DNA of 14,163 nt from Methanoregula sp. GTDB lineage: Archaea > Halobacteriota > Methanomicrobia > Methanomicrobiales > Methanospirillaceae. The notes below the pieces were generated by a model. That model was not told the DNA's origin. It searched no databases and worked only from the letters and a program-made list of their open reading frames with translations. Below are positions 620 through 10,561 of the stretch, piece by piece. The number at the start of each line of letters is the position of its first letter. The stretch's first letter is position 1. The DNA is taken from contig NZ_PIZH01000011.1 of NCBI RefSeq assembly GCF_002835825.1, positions 1 to 14,163 on the forward strand, in the 5' to 3' direction. The translations under genes and the position numbers were made by a program.

Positions 620-2512
620 TCAGAGCCCGGCTTTCCGCTGCATGGGGAGCACCTCGGCCCCCTCGAGATTACCGGCAGCCCACGTGTATCGTTCGCGGAT
701 TGCCGGGGGGAGCAGGGTTTCGGGTATGGGTTCAAAGCCGTACTGTCGATAGAACCCCTCCAGGTGGCGGACCGCGTACATGAAGAGGTCGTCATTATGG
801 CAGGCCTCCACCAGTGCACCAACAGCGATGCGGGAGTACCCGTTCTTCCGGAATTGTGCCGGTGTAAAGACACCGTCCACCTCAAGCCCGTCCGGGTGCC
901 GACGGCAGCGGGCTATGGACACCAGTTTTCCGGAATGGAAGACGCCGAAAATACGGTCCACCGTAGGATCGCCAGTGGTATCATGGTACTCCTTCCAGAC
1001 TTCATCGGCAAGGGAGAATTCATCTGCCCGCAATTCCCGTCCCACCGGGACTCCATTCTCCTCTGTCGTGGGAGAGATGTGGCGCTGCGAGGTTCCGGTC
1101 CCGGTGGCAGAGTTTTCTACCCGATACCCTTCCGATGGAACCAGGATCTCAAACCGCGCACCTTTGCGGTACTCCCCGGTCTCGCGGATAGCCATGCCGG
1201 TCAGGGAGACAATTTCCGCTGCAAGGAAAAGTCCCCTGCCATAACTGTCCTTGCGCTGTACGAAGAGTCCGTCTTTCTCATTCTCCGGAATGCCGGTCCC
1301 GTTGTCCTCGATGATGATGGCACAGCCCTCGTTACGGACCTGGTACGTGATGACGATCCTCGTTGCGCGCGTTGACTCTTTTAACGAGTTGTGGAGGATG
1401 TGGTAGAAGACCGTGGGCAGGTGCGGGTCCGAGAAGACGCAGAGCCTGCCGGTCCATGCATGGAACGTCACGTTCCTGAACTCAAGGCGGTCTGCTGCTG
1501 TAGCAACCGCATTCTGCACAGAAATCCATGACGGGGGCGTCCCGCCTATATCGCGAAATTCGCGGGAGATGTCGATCTGCCGTGTTATTCCGTCAGCAGC
1601 CAGTTTGAGGTCGCCGATGTACGCAATAATCTCGGGGTCAGAGAACTTCATGACGCCAAACCGGAGCTGGCCGTAAAGGACAGCAAGCTTACGGGAGATA
1701 TCATGCCGCAGGATGCCGGCAAGCGTATTGAGCCGGTGGCTGGTCTTCTCCAGCGCGGATGCGGTCATAACCCGGTCGGTGATATCCCGGATGGACTCGA
1801 TGGCTCCGGCTACGTTCCCGTTTGCATCCAGGAGTGGAGAAGCGGAGAAGCGGAGGTGCATGCCCCGGTCCCCCTGCATGTGCGGGAGAAAGATCTCTGA
1901 TACCAGTGTCCCGGATTCATTTCTTACCTGGGGATATTTCCTGGGGATCCCGCTCCCGTCACTGATGATCAGGCCGGCGAGCATCGGGCGGCGATCGCCA
2001 TAAAACGCAAGTGCGTACTCGTAGTTGCCGCGGTTCAGCATCGAGGCTTTCGACCGTCCTGTCATGGTCTCCAGTGCACGGTTCCAGGCAATGATCCTGC
2101 CCTCCTTGTCGATCGCGAAGGTTGCATCGGGCAAAAACTCGATGATATCGTGGAGCTGCTGTTCGGACTGTGCCAGGTTCCATGACAAAAACGAGACGAT
2201 ACACCCGACAAGCACGAGGATTGCGCACCGTGCAAAGGTAGCAAAACCGAGCACGAGATCGACCGGGGCAAAGAGAGTTATCTCCAGTGCAAAGATAAGG
2301 GCAACACTAAGGGAAAACGGGAGGCCGCGGCGGGGATACCAGTAGGAAGCAAGGATGATGGGGAAATAGAGGAGGTGGGAGAGGACTGCCGTGAGCCCGG
2401 CAAGGATGCCAAAGAGGTTAATGGCAAGGGTACACGCGGTGACTATCGCGAGCAGGATGATGCGGTCTTTTCGGGGGGGATGGGTGATGACAGACAGGTT
2501 CGGGACGTTCAT
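620..2512 (-). CDS. Membrane PAS sensor histidine kinase fused to a C-terminal GNAT acetyltransferase-like domain
   Basis: This 630-residue protein has four parts. (1) Residues ~17-111 hold about four hydrophobic helices, including the 'HLLYFPIILASYWYPRRG' type of sensor region. (2) A PAS domain spans ~117-250, ending in the usual 'SIRDITDR'. (3) A kinase core has phospho-acceptor His270 in 'LRHDIS', an N-box around Asn375, a G1 loop 'EDNGTGIP' (402-409) and a G2 loop 'GRGL' (425-428). (4) After a Ser/Thr-rich linker (~460-487), residues ~488-625 look like a GNAT N-acetyltransferase. The acetyl-CoA loop is 'RKNGYS' (555-560), followed by a helix, and 'FYRQYGFEPIP' (587-597) matches the GNAT C-terminal motif. 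The substrate is unknown. It is the last gene of the chemosensory cluster. The only start in this frame after the upstream TAG is the ATG at 2512, with AGGA 10 nt upstream. The kinase assignment is secure and the GNAT assignment likely; a signalling link between the two domains is inferred. Confidence 0.9.
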   Translation of the reverse strand: MNVPNLSVITHPPRKDRIILLAIVTACTLAINLFGILAGLTAVLSHLLYFPIILASYWYPRRGLPFSLSVALIFALEITLFAPVDLVLGFATFARCAILVLVGCIVSFLSWNLAQSEQQLHDIIEFLPDATFAIDKEGRIIAWNRALETMTGRSKASMLNRGNYEYALAFYGDRRPMLAGLIISDGSGIPRKYPQVRNESGTLVSEIFLPHMQGDRGMHLRFSASPLLDANGNVAGAIESIRDITDRVMTASALEKTSHRLNTLAGILRHDISRKLAVLYGQLRFGVMKFSDPEIIAYIGDLKLAADGITRQIDISREFRDIGGTPPSWISVQNAVATAADRLEFRNVTFHAWTGRLCVFSDPHLPTVFYHILHNSLKESTRATRIVITYQVRNEGCAIIIEDNGTGIPENEKDGLFVQRKDSYGRGLFLAAEIVSLTGMAIRETGEYRKGARFEILVPSEGYRVENSATGTGTSQRHISPTTEENGVPVGRELRADEFSLADEVWKEYHDTTGDPTVDRIFGVFHSGKLVSIARCRRHPDGLEVDGVFTPAQFRKNGYSRIAVGALVEACHNDDLFMYAVRHLEGFYRQYGFEPIPETLLPPAIRERYTWAAGNLEGAEVLPMQRKAGL

Positions 2513-2590: not shown

Positions 2591-3913
2591 CTATGCGGGT
2601 GCGGGATCATGATTGCGGATAACTTGTTCCGGGCAGTGGATCTCGAAGCGGGCACCGGAGCCGCTCGTCCCGGTTTCGGATATGGTGATTCCGGTGATGG
2701 CCAATATTTCCCGGGCGAGAAAGAGACCAAGGCCCATGGTCATGCCGTGTTCGTACGTGAATATCGACTCCTTTCGTCCATCAGGGATGCCGACACCATC
2801 GTCTTCGCAGATGATAGTTGACCCGGATGATGTCTTTTCCATGCTGACGCGGAGCAGAGTCACCTTCTCACCATATTTTACCGAATTTTCCATCAGGTTG
2901 GAGAACACCTTGCCGATGAGCGGATCGGCATAAATCTCGGTTCCGGCAGGGACCTCGTTTTTGACCTTCAGGTTGCCGGGAACCTTCTCTTCGGCTGCGG
3001 CATCGACGAGGGTACGGACATCCTGCCATTGGGGTGATTTGACCCCCACTTTCTGGTAGTCTCCGGTAAATTTTACAGAGTTGAGAGTACATGTCCCTAT
3101 CTGGGCTGCAGCGGAGACATACTCCCATGCCTTATTCAGATCCGTATCTTTCAGCCTGAGTGCATATTCGAGAGATTCGTTCTGGGTCGTGAGCTGGTTT
3201 ACCACGTCATGCCGGGTGATACTGGCCATCAGGTTCAGTTTCTTGTTGGCCTCGTCGAGTGCTTTTTCGACCCTCCTCCGTTCGGTGTTTTCGGCTTCAA
3301 GCCGGGCATTTGATTCTTTCAGGTCATCGACTGCACCATGGAGTTGTTCATTCATGGCGTTGAGCTGTTCGCGCGCCTCTTCGAGTTCGGAATTCCTCCT
3401 CACCGCGACTTCATACGTGGAGAGAAGGATTCGCATAATCCGGAGCCTGCTCGCCGCGATCCGGTGGGTCTTTCCTGCATGAGAGATGTCAAGGGGGAAT
3501 GGGACTCCTTCCGGATCCGGCTGGCCGATCGCTTCAAGGATGCCGGTGATGCGGGCCCGGATATAGTCCGGGTCATAGGGTTTGACGATGAAATCATCAG
3601 CCCCGCACCCGAGACCGCGGATCACGTCAGCAGGATCAAAGAGCTGGGAGACGAGGATGACCGGGATCCCCCTTGTTTTTTCATCCTCACGGATCCTTTT
3701 ACAGAGTTCATATCCGTCCATCTCGGGCATGACGATATCCGAGAGGATCATCGTGGGGAGGAAGCTTTTGACACTCTCAAGTGCGTCCCTGCCATTCTCT
3801 GCCAGCAGGACCCGGTATCCTTCGGTTTCGAGGATGTGGCGAAGGTATTCCGCCTGTGTGCGGCTGTCTTCCACGATCAGGATCTTTACCGTTTTTTTCG
3901 CGATCTGCTCCAT
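2591..3913 (-). CDS. Response regulator-histidine kinase (REC, coiled coil, HisKA-like/HATPase)
   Basis: This soluble 440-residue protein begins with a receiver domain (residues ~8-127): acidic pair Glu15/Asp16, phospho-acceptor Asp59 in 'LSDIVMPEMDG' and conserved Lys111 in 'VKPYD'. A linker ('DISHAGKTHRI', ~142-152) and a helix lead into a coiled coil (~175-228). The kinase module follows: His235 in 'ITRHDVVNQL', an N-box 'NLMENS', G1 'EDDGVGIP' and G2 'GLGLFLA'. There are no membrane segments, so it probably receives its input as a phosphoryl group on Asp59, plausibly from the upstream CheA. The ATG follows the CheA stop by 3 nt in the same frame (TAA-ATC-ATG), which suggests translational coupling. 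The nearest purine-rich signal, GGGAG, is 14 nt upstream. The stop is TAG, and the frame stays open from there to the next gene. Confidence 0.92.
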   Translation of the reverse strand: MEQIAKKTVKILIVEDSRTQAEYLRHILETEGYRVLLAENGRDALESVKSFLPTMILSDIVMPEMDGYELCKRIREDEKTRGIPVILVSQLFDPADVIRGLGCGADDFIVKPYDPDYIRARITGILEAIGQPDPEGVPFPLDISHAGKTHRIAASRLRIMRILLSTYEVAVRRNSELEEAREQLNAMNEQLHGAVDDLKESNARLEAENTERRRVEKALDEANKKLNLMASITRHDVVNQLTTQNESLEYALRLKDTDLNKAWEYVSAAAQIGTCTLNSVKFTGDYQKVGVKSPQWQDVRTLVDAAAEEKVPGNLKVKNEVPAGTEIYADPLIGKVFSNLMENSVKYGEKVTLLRVSMEKTSSGSTIICEDDGVGIPDGRKESIFTYEHGMTMGLGLFLAREILAITGITISETGTSGSGARFEIHCPEQVIRNHDPAPA

Positions 3914-3916
3914 GAT

Positions 3917-6304
3917 TTACCGTCTGGCTCCCAAACGCCCCTGCGGTCTTTTTGTCCAAATTAAGTTCCTGACGACTGCAAGCAGGGCGCTTTTCTCAAA
4001 ACTGCTTTTGACAATATACGCATCTGCGCCGACAGCAATCCCGTGCTTCTGGTCTTCTGCGGAATCCAGCGAGGTCACCAGCACGACCGGAAGGGACTGG
4101 AGTTTTGGATCGCTCCGTATCTTCTCTGTCAGTACAAACCCGTTCATGCGGGGCATGTCAACATCCGATACGACAATATCTACCTGATGCTCTTTAAGAA
4201 TTGCGAAAGCCGCCATTCCGTCAGTGGCGGTCATCACCCGGTATCTCTCGCGCTCCAGGAGCATCTGGAGGAAAGCCCGCGAGGTTACTGAGTCTTCGAC
4301 AACAAGGACAATGGGTGCAGGTTCGCCTTTCTGTAACGGGGCTGCCCCGCGGGTGCTGATCCTGAGAGACTCCTGGATCAGTTCGGGAGGATCGAGCACA
4401 AGTGCAAGCGTCCCGTCACCAAGGATCGTTGCTCCGGCAATACGGCGTACCCTCCGGAGCTGGCTTCCGAGCGGCCGGACAACAATCTCCTGGACATGCA
4501 TAATCTCATCCACCTGGCATGCGACCTGGCCGGCACCGTAGGCGATGACGATGAGGGAGACAGGAGTATCTTTGCCGGTTGGCAGGCGGGATACCGGGAC
4601 ATCAAGGACATCGGATAGTTTTACGATGCCGATATCCTGTTCATCTACCCTGATGTACTGGCGCCTGCCACGGGTGAAGATGGTATCGGGTTTTATCCGT
4701 AAGACCTGCTGTACCTGCTGCATGGGGATAACATAGACCTGGCTGCCGGAACGGACCACAACGCCACGGAAGGTCACAAGACGGACCGGGATCCGCAGGG
4801 TGATTGTTGTTCCCTTCCCGTGTTCGGACGCGATGGTCACATACCCGCCAAGACGGGTAATGGTATCTTCCACAATGGCAAGGCCAAGCCCCCTCCCGGA
4901 GACTTCTGTTATGATAGGGCTTGTCGAAAAGCCGGAACGGAAGATGAGCCAGACTGCCTCAGCATTGGTAAGCCGTGCCTCTTCCTGCTCGGATATAAGG
5001 CCGATCCTGACCGCAGCTTTACGGATTTCACTCCCGTCTATCCCTTTCCCATCGTCCGATACCTCGATGTCAACTTTCCCTCCGGAGACAAGGACAACGC
5101 GGATTCGAACCGTTCCCCTGATGGCTTTATTATGCAGCGCCCGTAAATCGGGGTATTCGATCCCGTGGTCGATGCTGTTGTAGATCAGGTGCATCAGCGG
5201 ATCCTTGAGACTGTCGAGGATCCGGCGATCTACTTCGATCTCCCCGCCTTCGATCACCAGTTCAACCTGTTTTCCGGTAGTACGGGAATATTCCCTCACA
5301 AGGCCATGGAACGGTGCAAGGACGCTTGATACCGGCAGGAGAACCGCATCATGGATAAGTTCGGAGATCTCTAAGGTGCTGGCTTCAAGCGCAGCCCGGT
5401 CCCGGTCTGTTGCGCGAATAAATTCGGTGAGATCATGCTGGAGATAGGTGACGAACTCGCGGTCATAGTCCAGGAATTCCACCAGCCGCTGGAGTGGCAG
5501 GACGAGATCTGCCGGCAGATCTGCCTTGCCTGAACCGAACGACCGCTCGCGGATACGGTGGATATCCGTGGAGATGGCGGCCTGGTTCCACCGCCAGATG
5601 GTGAACCGTGCCAGCCACTCCTCCAGTTCCCGCATGCGGTGGGTAATGAAAAGGCGGGTTGTGAGAAGGTCATCCGAACCCGCGATGAGCCGGTCGAGTT
5701 TGTGTGCCGCAATGCGGACCGTTGCACCGTCTCCCTCCGGTCGACTTGCTCCTGTGGAGAGCACAGGAGGTTTCCGGATATCCCCCTGGTCCCTCTCCGG
5801 CAGGGAGGGATTAACCCCCGGCATATCAGCCGTGGAACGCACAGGAGGACCTCCCGGGTGCTTCTCCAATTCCTGTTTTTGCTGAGTCGCGGTGTCGCCG
5901 GGAGATGATTCTTTCCGCGTAAGGGAACGGAGTGACGAAACAATATCGGTAACCGGGGTAACGGGTTGTCCGGCCCCGTCCAGGATGCCCTGGACCACCC
6001 TGGCGGCCTGGTGGAAAATATCAAAATCGTCTGCATCGGGGACATACGTCCCTTTTTTCATGCGGGAGAAGATGTTCTCCAGATTCTGGCAGACGGACTC
6101 GATCTCCTTTTGTCCCACCGCCCGGGCCGCACCCTTGAGGCTGTGGGTTGTCCGGTAAATCCGCTCGACCGTTGCACTTTCCGGTACGGGGGGCGCTTTC
6201 TCCAGCTCGAGGAGTATTGCGACGATAACGTCCAGGTGTTCCCGCGCTTCCTCGCGGAACGTGGCAAGGAGTCTTTTTGTGAATTCAGCATCCGTTCCTT
6301 TCAT
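3917..6304 (-). CDS. cheA: Hybrid chemotaxis-type kinase CheA with C-terminal receiver
   Basis: The protein has 795 residues. An Hpt (P1) domain with phospho-acceptor His54 in 'THSLKGAARA' is followed by a long Pro/Ser-rich linker (~112-195) with no recognisable P2 domain. Next comes an extended helical region (~196-345) in the position of the P3 dimerisation domain but longer than usual. The HATPase domain (~350-505) has N-box 'HLIYNSIDHGIE' (Asn376), G1 'SDDGKGI' and G2 'GRGLGL'. A CheW-like P5 domain spans ~506-645. A receiver (~664-785) has acidic pair Glu670/Asp671, phospho-acceptor Asp714 and Lys766. This architecture is like FrzE/WspE-type hybrid CheA proteins rather than the classic motility CheA. 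It starts 12 nt after the receptor gene with no clear Shine-Dalgarno, so coupling is likely. His54 can pass phosphate to its own Asp714 or to the neighbouring REC-kinase. Confidence 0.95.
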   Translation of the reverse strand: MKGTDAEFTKRLLATFREEAREHLDVIVAILLELEKAPPVPESATVERIYRTTHSLKGAARAVGQKEIESVCQNLENIFSRMKKGTYVPDADDFDIFHQAARVVQGILDGAGQPVTPVTDIVSSLRSLTRKESSPGDTATQQKQELEKHPGGPPVRSTADMPGVNPSLPERDQGDIRKPPVLSTGASRPEGDGATVRIAAHKLDRLIAGSDDLLTTRLFITHRMRELEEWLARFTIWRWNQAAISTDIHRIRERSFGSGKADLPADLVLPLQRLVEFLDYDREFVTYLQHDLTEFIRATDRDRAALEASTLEISELIHDAVLLPVSSVLAPFHGLVREYSRTTGKQVELVIEGGEIEVDRRILDSLKDPLMHLIYNSIDHGIEYPDLRALHNKAIRGTVRIRVVLVSGGKVDIEVSDDGKGIDGSEIRKAAVRIGLISEQEEARLTNAEAVWLIFRSGFSTSPIITEVSGRGLGLAIVEDTITRLGGYVTIASEHGKGTTITLRIPVRLVTFRGVVVRSGSQVYVIPMQQVQQVLRIKPDTIFTRGRRQYIRVDEQDIGIVKLSDVLDVPVSRLPTGKDTPVSLIVIAYGAGQVACQVDEIMHVQEIVVRPLGSQLRRVRRIAGATILGDGTLALVLDPPELIQESLRISTRGAAPLQKGEPAPIVLVVEDSVTSRAFLQMLLERERYRVMTATDGMAAFAILKEHQVDIVVSDVDMPRMNGFVLTEKIRSDPKLQSLPVVLVTSLDSAEDQKHGIAVGADAYIVKSSFEKSALLAVVRNLIWTKRPQGRLGARR
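5754..5848 (-). repeat. Short imperfect duplication within the CheA linker
   Basis: GTGGAGAGCACAGGAGG (5754-5770) and GTGGAACGCACAGGAGG (5832-5848) differ at two positions and start exactly 78 bp (26 codons) apart. In the protein they encode the two 'PPVxST' motifs of the low-complexity P1-P3 linker (near residues 153-158 and 179-184). An in-frame internal duplication is the likely origin. Confidence 0.45.
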
Positions 6305-6316
6305 GGAAGGCGCACT

Positions 6317-8704
6317 TCACACATGGTACTGGACAGTGAGTTTCTTTAACCGGAGACCCAGCTCGTGGAGGTCTTCTGCCGTTTTCTCTGCTTTCCGGGT
6401 GATATCGAGGTTCTTCTGGGCTGCATCCCGGATCTTCTCCATGGCCAGGGATATCTGGTCCATGCCGGTTGCCTGTTCATGGATGGATGAGGCGATCTCG
6501 ATGGCCTGTCGCGATGATTCGGCAGTCGATCGCGTGAGGACCTCGATTGCCTCGCGGGCATCGCTTGTCAGCCGGACTGCATCAGCTACGGACTTTGTCC
6601 CCCGTTCGGTAGATATCACCGTCGATGAAACGCCCCGCTGGATATCCGTTAAGATGGTACGGATGTTCGAAGTTGCCTGTTTTGACTGTTCGGCAAGGTT
6701 ATGGATTTCGTGAGCAACCACGGCAAAACCTTTGCCAAGTTCACCGGCTTTTGCCGCTTCGATGGATGCGTTCACCGCGAGCAGGTTGGACTGTTCAGAG
6801 ATGTCCGTCACCGTTGCAATGATCTCCCCGATAGCCTGGCTCTGCTCCGAGAGCTTGATGACGTTCATGCCGATCATGTCCATCTGGCGCTGGATATGGT
6901 TCATTCCGTCGAGGATCTCCTGGACCGACTTCTGCCCGTCACCGGAGACATTCAGGGCGTTCATGGCCTTCTCTGATACTTCTTTTGTCTTCTGGTTCAT
7001 CAGGTCTGTCTTGGTCCGCACGCTCTCGACCGTATCGGAGGTCTCGTTTACGGTCGACGCGGTCTGTGAACTGGTTGAGGAGAGCTGGGTCGTCACGGTT
7101 AAAAGTTCGCTTGACGCCGAGGAGAGAACCGATATGCCTTCGTACAGTTCTTCGTTGATCAGTTTCATGAGCCGTTGTAACTCGATACCGATGGTGTTGA
7201 GGGCATCGCGATACGCGACGAATTCGCCGGCAACCGGAATCTTCTCATCGAACCGTGCCGTGAAATCACCGGATGCATAGAATCGGGCAAGGCGCATGGC
7301 CTCGTTGACCGGCTCCGTGATGGTTTCAAGCGTTTTGTTGAAACCGGCGATGATCATCCGGTACCCGCCGCGGAATGCCTTCTCGTCACCGCGTACAGAG
7401 AGATCCCCGGCCCGGGCAGCATCGGTCAGCTTGATTGTTTCCTTGTGCAGGTGGTCCAGTGAATCGACCATCATCCGAAGGGCAGGCCGGATCTCATCGC
7501 GATCGTCCACCGGTTCAGAGAACTGTTCGATATATTCCCCGTTTGCGATCTTCTTGATATCGCCGACAACGTTCGTCTGGAGATCGTCGGCAAACTCATC
7601 CATGGTGGCAGACATCATGCCGATCTCGTCCTTGCGCTTGAGGTTCAGCCGGGCCGAGAGATGGCCGTTCCTGAGTTCCCGGATCATCAGGACAACCTGC
7701 TGCAGGGGTTCGGAGATGGATTTCCCAAAGAGGACCGCGACTGCTGCACCGATGCCCATGGATGCGAGGACCAGGGCTAAGATCGTGTTCCGGATGGTGT
7801 CAATCGGACCGCTGAAGTCAGCAAGTTCTGCCCGGGAGACAATATACCAGTCAAGGGGTTCGTAATACGTGTACGCATCGATAACCTGCGTTCCTTCCAC
7901 ATCATGGGGAACCGCTCCTTCTTTTTTGACGAACATTTCCTGGACATATGCCCTGTCAGCCCATGTCTGGCCCTCGGCATTCGGGTGAACGAGGACGGTT
8001 CCGGTACTGTCAATAACATACATGTACCCATTCTGGCCGACAACTGTATCGCGGATACTCTTCTTGACCACATCAAGAGTCTGCCCGGCTTCAGTTCCTA
8101 CGAAAAGGACACCGATGATCTTGCCGCTGGGATCCTTGATCGGCTCATATGCAGTGACATAGTCCTTGCCGAACAGGTCTCTCCTGCCATAGTACGTCTC
8201 GCCCTTTTCTACCGCAACCTCGTAGACATTATCGGTCAGGTGAGTGCCTACGGCTCGCTGGCCGTTGGAGTCAAGCACATTGGTCGAGATACGTGCCGCA
8301 TAGCTGTTATTATACACCTGGAAGACGGTGGCCGCGCCGCCCACCATCGACTGGACCTTGTCAACGATCTCGAAGTTGTCATTTATAACGTATTGCGTAC
8401 CGTCATTAGTGACAAGCGTCATCCGGTCGTTGATGATCTGCGGGGTGCCTTTCCCGTAAAAGTTCTGCTTTGCCACATTCAGGTCGCTGTTGACCTTGTT
8501 GCGCGTGAGCTTGTACACATCGTTGGTCCAGCCCTTCATGTCCTGGACCTGCGTCTCCAGGAGCGACTGTGTCTGTTCGCTGATAACGCTGCTTGATGTC
8601 GTGTAGGCGACAATGCCCAGGAGCAGCGTCGGTATGATGGCGAGGAACAGGCAGATGACCAGGATCTTTGTCCCGACTTTCATGTTTGAGAAGAATTCAA
8701 GCAT
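6317..8704 (-). CDS. Methyl-accepting chemotaxis protein (Cache sensor, poly-HAMP, MCP signalling domain)
   Basis: With the start at 8704 the receptor has 795 residues. TM1 is ~13-33. The extracellular sensor (~36-300) looks like a double Cache (Cache_3-Cache_2 type): '[19 protein letters not shown]' is followed by '[19 protein letters not shown]'. TM2 is ~304-327. Then come a HAMP (~328-378) and about three further HAMP-like repeats (~380-510), each with a glycine followed by Asp/Glu/His and Leu/Tyr/Phe (GEY, GDL, GDF). The signalling hairpin covers ~520-790. Its tip, '[16 protein letters not shown]' followed by '[16 protein letters not shown]', is the CheA/CheW contact. There is no C-terminal CheR-binding pentapeptide. 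The longest open frame begins at 8758, but that ATG has no ribosome-binding site, while 8704 has GGAG 8 nt upstream and gives a normal receptor N-terminus. The ligand cannot be told from sequence. Confidence 0.93.
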
Positions 8705-8712
8705 AAATATGT

Positions 8713-8716
8713 CTCC
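8713..8716 (-). promoter_or_regulatory. Shine-Dalgarno GGAG that fixes the receptor start at 8704
   Basis: On the minus strand GGAG is followed by eight bases and then ATG at 8704-8702. Nothing similar precedes the in-frame ATG at 8758. This favours removing 18 residues from the longest open frame. Confidence 0.65.
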
Positions 8717-8735
8717 GGAACGTTCCAGGAATTCC
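8717..8735. promoter_or_regulatory. Two adjacent palindromes, candidate operator in the receptor leader
   Basis: The stretch GGAACGTTCCAGGAATTCC holds a perfect 10-bp palindrome (8717-8726) and a perfect 8-bp palindrome (8728-8735), separated by one base. This gives four GGAA/TTCC half-sites in a row. It lies between the putative TATA box (8740-8749) and the start codon, about where transcription would begin. A regulator bound there could block initiation. No footprint evidence is available from sequence. Confidence 0.35.
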
Positions 8736-8739
8736 CTGA

Positions 8740-8749
8740 TTGTATATCC
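8740..8749 (-). promoter_or_regulatory. Possible TATA box for the receptor gene
   Basis: On the minus strand GGATATACAA lies 36-45 nt upstream of the start codon at 8704. Initiation about 25 nt downstream would leave a leader of roughly 16 nt containing the GGAG. The 136-nt gap between cheW and the receptor is the largest inside the chemosensory cluster, so a second promoter here is plausible. Confidence 0.3.
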
Positions 8750-8840
8750 TGATGGCATGTCGCATAAACGTAGTGATTCTCAGCTGCAACAATACAACCG
8801 GATACCCTGCAATGGTTATTGCGCCTGTTTGGGGAATGGT

Positions 8841-9860
8841 TCATGCCTCGTCGATGATCATTCCCGGGTCGGTAAAGAGCGCGCAGGTGTCGAGAATGAC
8901 AAGCGGACCGTCGGCCACTCCTTTTACATACCTGTTCGCCATTATGGGTAGATCTGTTTTTTTTGCAGAGATACGATCCAGTTCGATGGAACCAATACCG
9001 GTGATGTGGTCAGCGAGGATCCCGAAGGTCAGTGTCCTGTCAGTCAGGACGATCACGCGGTTTAAGTCGGTAAGCCCGGTCTCGGGAATGGCAAGCAGGA
9101 CGCGGAGGTCGACAAGGGAGATGATCTCGCCCCGGACAATACAGATCCCCGAGATGAAATCCGGTGTTCCGGGAACCGGCGTGATCTCTCCGGTAAGGAT
9201 AACTTCCCGGATATTTCCCATCTCGATTGCATACTCCCGGTAAGCGAGCCGGAACTTGAGGACTTCAACCGTTTTTATTTCGACAAGGGCCTCTTCCGGG
9301 CGGGCAATCTTTGCTGCACGTTCGGCCAGCACCGCATTGATATGTGCTCCGTCATTGTCAGGTCCTGCAAGAGCTCGTTCGCTGGTGTCATCTCTTGTTG
9401 CCTCTCGGGCCGGCACCAGATTGTCATCGGCGCTGTCCGGCATAATGCCTCCGGATGCGAGCAGCCCCGGAAGATCGTAAACAACCAGGAGTCCTTCTGC
9501 GGTTTTCAGAACACCGGATCCTTCAGGAAATGTCTGGTGGGGCATCCCCTTCGCATCCCTGGGAAGGGGGATCTCGTGGACGCCGGAGGTTGCATCAACC
9601 CAGAGTGCAAGGTCATGGTTTCCGGTCCGGGCAATGATGAGCCTATCCGTCAGTGCGGGAACTGCATCTTTAAGGCCAAAGAGGTACCTCACTGAAACAA
9701 CGGAAAGTGTCCTGCCATGGAGATTGATGGTCCCTGCATCCCAGGGGGGGTCGCCCGCGTTCCTCTGTTTAGGCCTGACCATCCGGATGACCTGCATGGT
9801 CTCCTCAAGGGGAATTGCACCATTGACGGGTCCGACAGAGAAAAGGAGCAACTGGGCCAT
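8841..9860 (-). CDS. cheW: Tandem CheW-domain scaffold protein
   Basis: With the start at 9860 the protein has 339 residues. Two CheW-like domains are visible: residues ~1-150 ('QLLLFSVGPVNGAIPLEETMQVIR', then 'GTINLHGRTLSVVSVRYLFG') and ~195-335 ('LKFRLAYREYAIEMGNIREVI', then 'SGICIVRGEIISLVDLRVLL'). An acidic/Ala-rich linker of ~45 residues joins them. Known CheW proteins are usually single domains of ~150-170 residues that bridge receptor and CheA; here two are fused. The C-terminal copy matches the consensus better, and the first is more divergent. I chose ATG 9860 because CheW domains normally start just before the first strand and GTGAT precedes it by 4 nt. The longer frame starts with GTG at 9890 and has no ribosome-binding site. 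It is the first chemosensory gene after the archaellin. Confidence 0.9.
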   Translation of the reverse strand: MAQLLLFSVGPVNGAIPLEETMQVIRMVRPKQRNAGDPPWDAGTINLHGRTLSVVSVRYLFGLKDAVPALTDRLIIARTGNHDLALWVDATSGVHEIPLPRDAKGMPHQTFPEGSGVLKTAEGLLVVYDLPGLLASGGIMPDSADDNLVPAREATRDDTSERALAGPDNDGAHINAVLAERAAKIARPEEALVEIKTVEVLKFRLAYREYAIEMGNIREVILTGEITPVPGTPDFISGICIVRGEIISLVDLRVLLAIPETGLTDLNRVIVLTDRTLTFGILADHITGIGSIELDRISAKKTDLPIMANRYVKGVADGPLVILDTCALFTDPGMIIDEA

Positions 9861-9898
9861 GATTATCACGCAATGATCCAGCATTGGCACTGATGGCT

Positions 9899-9946: not shown

Positions 9947-10561
9947 TCAGTAGAGTGGTTGTATCCGCGAGAGTGCTCCGGGAACGGTCTTTGAGAAGGA
10001 TGAGACCGCTCCCACGGCAGGCTGCAGGTTAAAGGTAATCTTCTGGTTGACCGTTGCGCTGGGGGGCATCCCGATAGAGATAATCCAGATCTCGTTAGGT
10101 TCGAGCAGGTTATTGGGGAGTCCCACCTCATTGATCTTCTGGGAGACACACCACTCGATATCATTATTCGTTGCAGCATTTGCGGTGAGTATTGTGCCAC
10201 ACGCTGAGGGAATCATATTGATGCTGGGATTCCTGCCGCCGCCGGAATCAGAGTAGGAGATAACCATCTGGGTCAGGTCCATCGGCGTTCCGCCGGCCAT
10301 GAGCATGATGCTTGCGTTAATGTAGGTTAGACGCGAGGGATTTTCACCCAGCGCAATTCCTATGACATTGCCGGCAATTTCAACGCTTGAGCTGGCCTGG
10401 GCAACACCGGTATGTACCGTTGCCTGGGCAGTCTGGGTTGTATAGAATCCCGCCCCAAGCACAACATAGGAGAATACAGCGGCGACTACGACAAAGGCGA
10501 TGAGGACAATCGCAGCCTCAAGGCCGGTAAATGCGGTTTCAATATATGGGGGTAGTTTCAT
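9947..10561 (-). CDS. Archaellin (archaeal flagellin, class III signal peptide)
   Basis: The 204-residue preprotein has a very short leader (MKLPPYIETA). It is followed by FTGLEAAIVLIAFVVVAAVF, the hydrophobic N-terminal helix of archaellins, with Glu at +5 of the predicted mature protein. The leader would be removed by the prepilin-type peptidase (FlaK/PibD). The next segment ('TTQTAQATVHTGVAQASSSVEIAG') is also typical of Methanomicrobiales archaellins. The outer domain (~70-204) is beta-rich and has two cysteines (121, 138) that could form a disulfide and one N-glycosylation sequon (Asn82, NAS). GGAG lies 4 nt before the ATG and a TATA box lies about 70 nt upstream. No archaellum assembly genes (arlC-J) are in the window, so other motor parts must be elsewhere. 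A type IV pilin role is less likely but possible. Confidence 0.88.
   Translation of the reverse strand: MKLPPYIETAFTGLEAAIVLIAFVVVAAVFSYVVLGAGFYTTQTAQATVHTGVAQASSSVEIAGNVIGIALGENPSRLTYINASIMLMAGGTPMDLTQMVISYSDSGGGRNPSINMIPSACGTILTANAATNNDIEWCVSQKINEVGLPNNLLEPNEIWIISIGMPPSATVNQKITFNLQPAVGAVSSFSKTVPGALSRIQPLY

Follow-up and report, generated by a model that had tools for sequence, protein, structure and literature searches.

In actinobacteria, protein acetylation is regulated by sensor domains that precede a GNAT in one protein. According to the sections of PMC6434083 on which we draw, such proteins include the cNMP-GNAT proteins MtPat and MsPat and the ACT-GNAT protein AAPatA, and MsPatA may have a universal stress protein among its targets. 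A histidine kinase without an H-box has been described in Methanosarcina acetivorans (MA_type 2, RdmS); according to the sections of PMC11784639 on this protein, it binds and hydrolyses ATP and has no autokinase activity. The word 'acetyltransferase' is absent from the main text of that article. In term searches, the main text of PMC5847659 mentions neither GNAT nor acetyltransferase, and the main text of PMC11237513, on archaeal fusions, does not mention histidine kinases. Among open-licence papers, we found no published account of a kinase-GNAT pair; automatic annotations name both domains in some database records already. Sensor kinases are read by default as phosphate donors. Here we analyse a gene of Methanoregula sp. 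in which a histidine-kinase-like sensor is joined to a GNAT domain. The gene lies in a stretch of 14,163 nucleotides (contig NZ_PIZH01000011.1), to which we refer as the window.

Domain order and conservation of the fused protein

The protein encoded at positions 620-2512 on the minus strand is modelled as consisting, in this order, of membrane helices, a PAS domain, a histidine-kinase core, a disordered linker and a GNAT fold. The following features were assigned:

620..2512, minus strand: whole gene, 630 aa, a membrane PAS histidine-kinase-like sensor fused to GNAT, with fused relatives known
2138..2479, minus strand: four predicted long helices, residues 12-125, likely the membrane input region (secondary structure of model m5fa9b2c09366; hydrophobicity by eye)
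1769..2134, minus strand: PAS domain, residues 127-248 (PAS_4, E 1.2e-11)
1550..1780, minus strand: dimerisation helices (DHp), residues 245-321 (model helices 245-289 and 293-321)
1703..1705, minus strand: codon of H270, candidate phosphoacceptor in RHDISRKL (sequence comparison)
1133..1423, minus strand: HATPase_c domain, residues 364-460, with N375 and D403-G405-G407 (Pfam match; residue alignment)
1049..1117, minus strand: Ser/Thr-rich linker, residues 466-488 (pLDDT <50 at 469-485; dN/dS 0.58 and 0.93)
623..1048, minus strand: GNAT domain, residues 489-630 (domain match, alignment and predicted fold)
833..850, minus strand: acetyl-CoA loop RKNGYS, residues 555-560 (family form R-x-x-G-Y-S/A)
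749..751, minus strand: codon of Y588 in FYxxxGF, near-invariant (family alignment)
635..721, minus strand: family-specific C-terminal stretch, residues 598-626, E..LPP.IR.RY.WA.GNLEGAEV.PM.R (family alignment)

The kinase part has the residues of an orthodox histidine kinase, with H270 in the H-box and N375 (N box), D403, G405 and G407 (G1 box) in the ATP site. The GNAT part combines the fold and the acetyl-CoA loop of the superfamily. In a structure model of this domain, the fold is predicted confidently (pLDDT 91) and resembles the GNAT structures 5z6n, 2ozh, 9cr5 and 2r8v. In the full-length model the linker is poorly modelled, and the pTM is 0.52, so that no kinase-GNAT interface can be taken from it. 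The kinase-GNAT fusion had been proposed in a preliminary description of this locus, and it is borne out by the domain matches, the predicted fold and fused relatives in independent assemblies.

In its textbook form the acetyl-CoA loop reads Q/R-x-x-G-x-G/A, and the final Ser of the window's loop departs from this consensus. The preliminary description had seen in this Ser a reason to doubt catalysis. We aligned 266 domains of the family, of which 77 are kinase-fused, 50 USP-fused, 131 stand-alone and eight of other architectures. The loop R-x-x-G-Y ends in Ser in 178 of these and in Ala in the other 88, with few changes at its other places. A degenerate GNAT was thus rejected as an explanation of the Ser, which is the family norm; activity itself is a prediction. 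The residues W506, Y509, R520, D546, R555, Y588, P602, R608, G614 and R626 are conserved at 99-100%. Apart from single exceptions, the 16 tallied positions are alike across the four architecture groups, and only the Ser/Ala position of the loop differs, with Ala being usual in the USP-fused domains (49/50). By analogy with other GNATs, Y588 is a candidate general acid.

Within the window's taxonomic family, 91 of 108 genomes encode a GNAT of this kind, and within its class 168 of 232 do; all 168 belong to the window's order. Beyond the order, 40 genomes of a phylum sample of 392 matched at E <= 1e-6, and we read these matches as other GNATs. The best of them has an E-value of 4.4e-10 (40 bits), compared to at least 127 bits for the listed near-full-length copies inside the order. 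Names among the best 80 of 126 loci are Methanoregula, Methanoculleus, Methanolinea, Methanocalculus, Methanofollis and a Methanospirillum MAG. Seven proteins of 350 aa (P0063, P0065, P0067, P0073, P0080, P0082 and P0097) carry this GNAT at the C-terminus, behind an N-terminal part that matches neither the kinase nor the USP references. There is also a second GNAT paralogue (L171, L173, L174, L176; L010), which stands alone and is 41-44% identical; in four relatives it is encoded about 6-8 kb away from the fused or paired gene, and the coordinates in G068 and G069 place a paralogue likewise near that gene. A PAS protein of 335-360 aa is found near the paralogue, and one gene between the paralogue and the fused or paired gene presumably resembles a formate transporter, judging by its first residues. 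In the window's genome, the stand-alone paralogue is located on a different contig.

Fused and separate genes and their chemosensory neighbourhood

Relatives from independent assemblies contain the same fusion at nearly equal length, by which an assembly or frame artefact was rejected. At the orthologous locus, the gene is fused in L012, L013, L016, L019 and L026, and a kinase gene is followed by a GNAT gene in L014, L015, L017, L018, L020-L025, L027, L028 and L030. The preliminary description had considered that the domains might be separate genes in all homologues; relatives with the same fusion were found instead, and both forms coexist at the same locus. The fusion is thus real, yet it is not fixed there. 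Where the two genes are separate, they overlap by 1 or 4 bases at 12 of 15 junctions, or at 10 of 13 with two repeated loci counted once; some frames in the junction, cluster and census analyses are over-extended at the start (e.g. 327 aa; the L018 junction). We inferred a tree of 104 kinase modules by a quick method without bootstrap, with the H-box columns masked. On this unrooted tree the fused or separate state changes at least nine times; type-1 fusions need eight changes, and well-supported branches make five of these unavoidable. On such a tree each change may be either a fusion or a splitting. Convergent to the fused gene, the window encodes a 152-aa protein without a Pfam match (118-576), which is kept there in many relatives with 48-91% identity.

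Linkage was counted in a census of 24 genomes with 1-5 contigs each (G042, G155 and G193, whose matches were incompletely listed, were left out and one partial match in G065 was dropped). Of 45 GNAT copies, 23 are kinase-linked, namely seven fusions and 16 copies just downstream of a kinase, defined as a same-strand kinase frame that ends at most 1,100 bases before the GNAT domain. The 16 unfused copies are 11 GNAT genes and five USP-GNAT genes. The other 22 copies, seven USP-GNAT and 15 GNAT, have no kinase just upstream. By raw counts of adjacency, linked copies (one or more) are present in 16 of the 24 genomes. In 15 of 16 cases, the upstream kinase matches the reference modules of membrane helices, PAS and kinase core; the exception is L220, where the upstream frame of 322 aa matches PAS and kinase without a match to the membrane part. 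In that genome (G227), a membrane and PAS frame and a PAS and kinase frame lie about 2 kb apart, both before the GNAT gene. At L198 (G033), a type-2 kinase frame directly precedes the GNAT part and the joint frame is interrupted by an in-frame TAG, for which reason alone this copy was counted as having no kinase.

In Methanoculleus and others, this GNAT family also occurs joined to USP domains. Genes for such USP-GNAT fusions (about 400 aa) directly follow a membrane PAS kinase gene, mostly one with a replaced phosphoacceptor, at L048, L049, L073, L075-L085, L087-L089, L091, L092, L094-L096, L098, L099, L101, L121 and L139. The window's fusion is one form of a wider kinase-GNAT association. 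Judged by gene order, the repeated fusion together with the tight adjacency suggests a functional link between kinase and GNAT.

In the window, a run of genes for paired CheW stretches, an MCP with Cache sensor, CheA-REC and REC-kinase ends in the kinase-GNAT gene:

2591..3913, minus strand: REC and histidine kinase with intact H-box, conserved neighbour
3917..6304, minus strand: CheA with C-terminal receiver (Hpt, HATPase_c, CheW, REC), conserved neighbour
6317..8758, minus strand: methyl-accepting chemotaxis protein (MCP) with Cache_3-Cache_2 sensor, conserved neighbour
8841..9890, minus strand: protein with two matched CheW stretches, conserved neighbour

The same run, with kinase and GNAT fused or separate, is present in L041-L047, all from the window's genus (the CheW pair of L045 was read as two frames). 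The genes for MCP, CheA, REC-kinase, kinase and GNAT are consecutive in Methanoculleus (L065, L067, L069, L071 and L086) and in L068, and the run from MCP to GNAT is seen in L061-L065, L067-L069, L071 and L086. In L090 (Methanocalculus), L215 and L219, the pair comes after CheA and REC-kinase, of which only the REC-kinase could be recognised in L221; L215, L219 and L221 fall in two further families. The gene thus belongs to a che cluster by its stable neighbourhood with mcp, cheA and cheW, and the kinase-GNAT pair closes a chemosensory cluster that is shared, at least in part, with other families. A chemosensory or archaellum setting, as anticipated in the preliminary description, is indeed what we observe, with the cluster lying beside an archaellin gene. 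This archaellin-like gene (window 9947-10561; PF01917, E 4.4e-31) heads the cluster in the window and also in L041 and L042; we did not find it in L043-L047.

A Pfam scan detected neither CheR nor CheB in the window's cluster, and neither was found in the window's own fragmented genome. Among 12 genomes tested, CheR is encoded in 11 and CheB in 10, away from the kinase-GNAT cluster. We thus rejected absent methylation as the reason for acetylation. Reading the substrate from gene neighbours was likewise rejected, as no conserved neighbour points to one. Around type-2 fusions, no gene family besides the fusion itself occurs in more than 9 of 30 loci, and there is no hint of a substrate among them. 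Around USP-GNAT genes some families recur in up to 16 of 25 loci, a recurrence for which gene order in near relatives may account.

Phosphoacceptor and ATP site of the linked kinases

We compared the residue at position 270 among the GNAT-linked kinase modules. The first set of rows, from which only exact duplicates had been dropped, gave His in 5 of 31 kinases beside USP-GNAT; the rows were hence recounted after clustering at 90% and 70% identity. Since the fused rows partly come from a length-limited protein search (best 120 of 295), the ratios of fused to separate rows are not a census. In the 90% clusters, His is found in 9 of 46 type-1 fusions, with Asn in 30 of them, in 9 of 15 separate type-1 kinases, where it is replaced in six, and in 3 of 21 kinases beside USP-GNAT genes. 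None of the 32 type-2 fusions has His at 270; 30 have Asp there, and His is found at 271 in 30. Clustering at 70% gave 4/16 for type-1 fusions, 3/7 for separate kinases, 0/4 for kinases adjacent to USP-GNAT and 0/17 for type-2 fusions. In the control class of REC-kinases, His is present in 17/18 at 90%, with the misaligned row L126 counted as non-His, and in 13/14 at 70%. As a second control we took 19 further kinase frames of the same genome, drawn from 20 sequence stretches and covering part of that genome's kinases; 18 of the 19 keep His.

On the kinase tree, the His state changes at least seven times. Over independent pairs, we found no association between His loss and fusion, and 6 of 15 separate kinases lose His too; fusion as the cause of phosphoacceptor loss is thus unsupported.

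The ATP site behaves differently from the phosphoacceptor. Across the GNAT-linked rows, G405 is kept in 114/114 and G407 in 113/114. D403 is kept in 42/46 type-1 fusions, 11/15 separate type-1 kinases, 21/21 kinases adjacent to USP-GNAT and 31/32 type-2 fusions; the corresponding counts for N375 are 32/46, 11/15, 20/21 and 31/32, so that the N box appears to show some decay in type-1 modules. As far as the alignments indicate, GNAT-linked kinase modules often have no phosphoacceptor His, whereas the ATP-site glycines and the GNAT residues are nearly invariant. ATP binding thus looks better conserved than the phosphoacceptor.

Proposed sensor control of acetylation and described systems

The GNAT is constant, whereas the kinase core is variable and often unfit for orthodox phosphotransfer, which argues for an output role of the GNAT, with the sensor part regulating it. 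We thus propose a membrane-anchored acetyltransferase whose GNAT output would be controlled by a kinase-like sensor, and we see the chances of this proposal as even. The helices and the PAS domain would perceive a signal, and the histidine-kinase core would bind ATP, dimerise and mainly relay the signal by a change of shape. The GNAT beyond the flexible linker would then acetylate a target amine, most likely that of a protein, with acetyl-CoA as the donor. The GNAT active site and the C-terminal signature hardly differ between stand-alone, USP-fused and kinase-fused domains, so that all architectures probably share one chemistry, and the N-terminal partner would set when or where the GNAT acts. 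Likely targets at this locus would be the proteins of the chemosensory cluster.

Several observations count against a sensor-regulated acetyltransferase: His is kept in the window's clade and in 9 of 15 separate type-1 kinases, type-2 modules have a His one residue on and may thus be active, His loss does not follow fusion, N375 is kept in only 32 of 46 type-1 fusions, 22 of 45 census copies are unlinked, and the conserved neighbours give no pointer to a substrate. The retained His could point to a protein with two outputs. In such a protein, the kinase of the window's clade would be active and pass phosphate to a receiver encoded nearby, in REC-kinase or CheA-REC, and the GNAT would acetylate this partner or a different one. 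The window protein has an intact H270-D271, which is retained in the clade, as well as N375 and the G1 box, and receivers are encoded next door. The DHp region is under strong purifying selection, with dN/dS of 0.009 and 0.041 compared to L012 and L013, the lowest in the protein (GNAT: 0.125 and 0.189). With H270-D271 kept and DHp so constrained, kinase activity may persist in this clade. However, the residue at H+4 is R in the window, whereas it is N in 16 of 18 REC-kinase rows and usually N in the 19 control kinases. Furthermore, His is replaced by Tyr in L015, which is closely related and lies at the same locus, and by Asn in most type-1 fusions, yet they retain the GNAT. We therefore consider two outputs rather unlikely. 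For the coupling of phospho-signalling to acetylation suggested in the preliminary description, this means that it may apply to the window's clade, which keeps His, but not as a general rule: most sampled linked modules have no His at the usual position, and phosphotransfer is thus not their common denominator.

From the role of acetyl-CoA in metabolism, the preliminary description had also argued for acetyl-CoA as an input to the kinase, with the GNAT as a non-catalytic sensor reporting the metabolic state. The conserved acetyl-CoA loop agrees with such a role, which otherwise fits poorly and which we regard as very improbable, because stand-alone and USP-fused copies of the domain have the same residues including Y588, because the kinase to be informed often has no phosphoacceptor and keeps its link all the same, and because the GNAT sits behind the ATPase domain, which is no input position. 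The shared gene or operon could also serve only co-expression or membrane tethering, with an acetyltransferase that is not under control of the sensor. The loose and poorly conserved linker agrees with this, as do the census copies without a kinase just upstream; that the same type of kinase is paired with the GNAT across several families, and that the pair has repeatedly switched between one gene and two, makes this explanation improbable as well.

More generally, and as a tentative suggestion that we hold to be possible, this order of methanogens may use kinase-like membrane sensors with an acetylation output, one unit of which resides in an old chemosensory cluster. If so, the kinase core would be an ATP-dependent switch for a dedicated acetyltransferase, and acetylation would replace or join phosphorylation in an archaeal sensory pathway. 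A conserved group of kinases with preserved ATP binding, a frequently missing phosphoacceptor and a tie to an acetyltransferase would mean that the histidine-kinase scaffold has a second kind of output, and it would open a way to study signalling by protein acetylation in methanogens. As close relatives offer both fused and separate forms, the link is directly testable with purified proteins.

When comparing the window protein to described systems, we find that each shares a part of it. ElaA and the other GNAT structures (5z6n, 2ozh, 9cr5 and 2r8v) share the fold, the acetyl-CoA loop and an FYxxxGF-like region; unlike these, the window's family has its own ARCRRH strand and the C-terminal stretch 598-626, and the best profile match has an E-value of 2.9e-7. 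Orthodox archaeal PAS histidine kinases have the same PAS-DHp-HATPase_c core, whereas a C-terminal GNAT and the frequent loss of the phosphoacceptor distinguish the GNAT-linked group. With RdmS, as described in the sections of PMC11784639 cited above, the group shares an ATP-binding kinase core without phosphoacceptor His; unlike in RdmS-type kinases, the loss is recurrent here and affects kinases that are tied to a GNAT. The closest architecture is that of the class I-beta Pat enzymes, in which an N-terminal regulatory domain is likewise followed by a C-terminal GNAT (sections of PMC6434083), and in the window protein the sensor and kinase core, as the putative effector part, precede the GNAT in the same way. 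The regulator is a soluble ligand domain there and a membrane PAS and histidine-kinase core here; the window's GNAT family, unlike class I-beta Pat, is archaeal, belongs to one order and has predicted activity only. By analogy with the enzymes covered in those sections, the kinase-GNAT sensor would work like the cNMP-GNAT and ACT-GNAT acetyltransferases.
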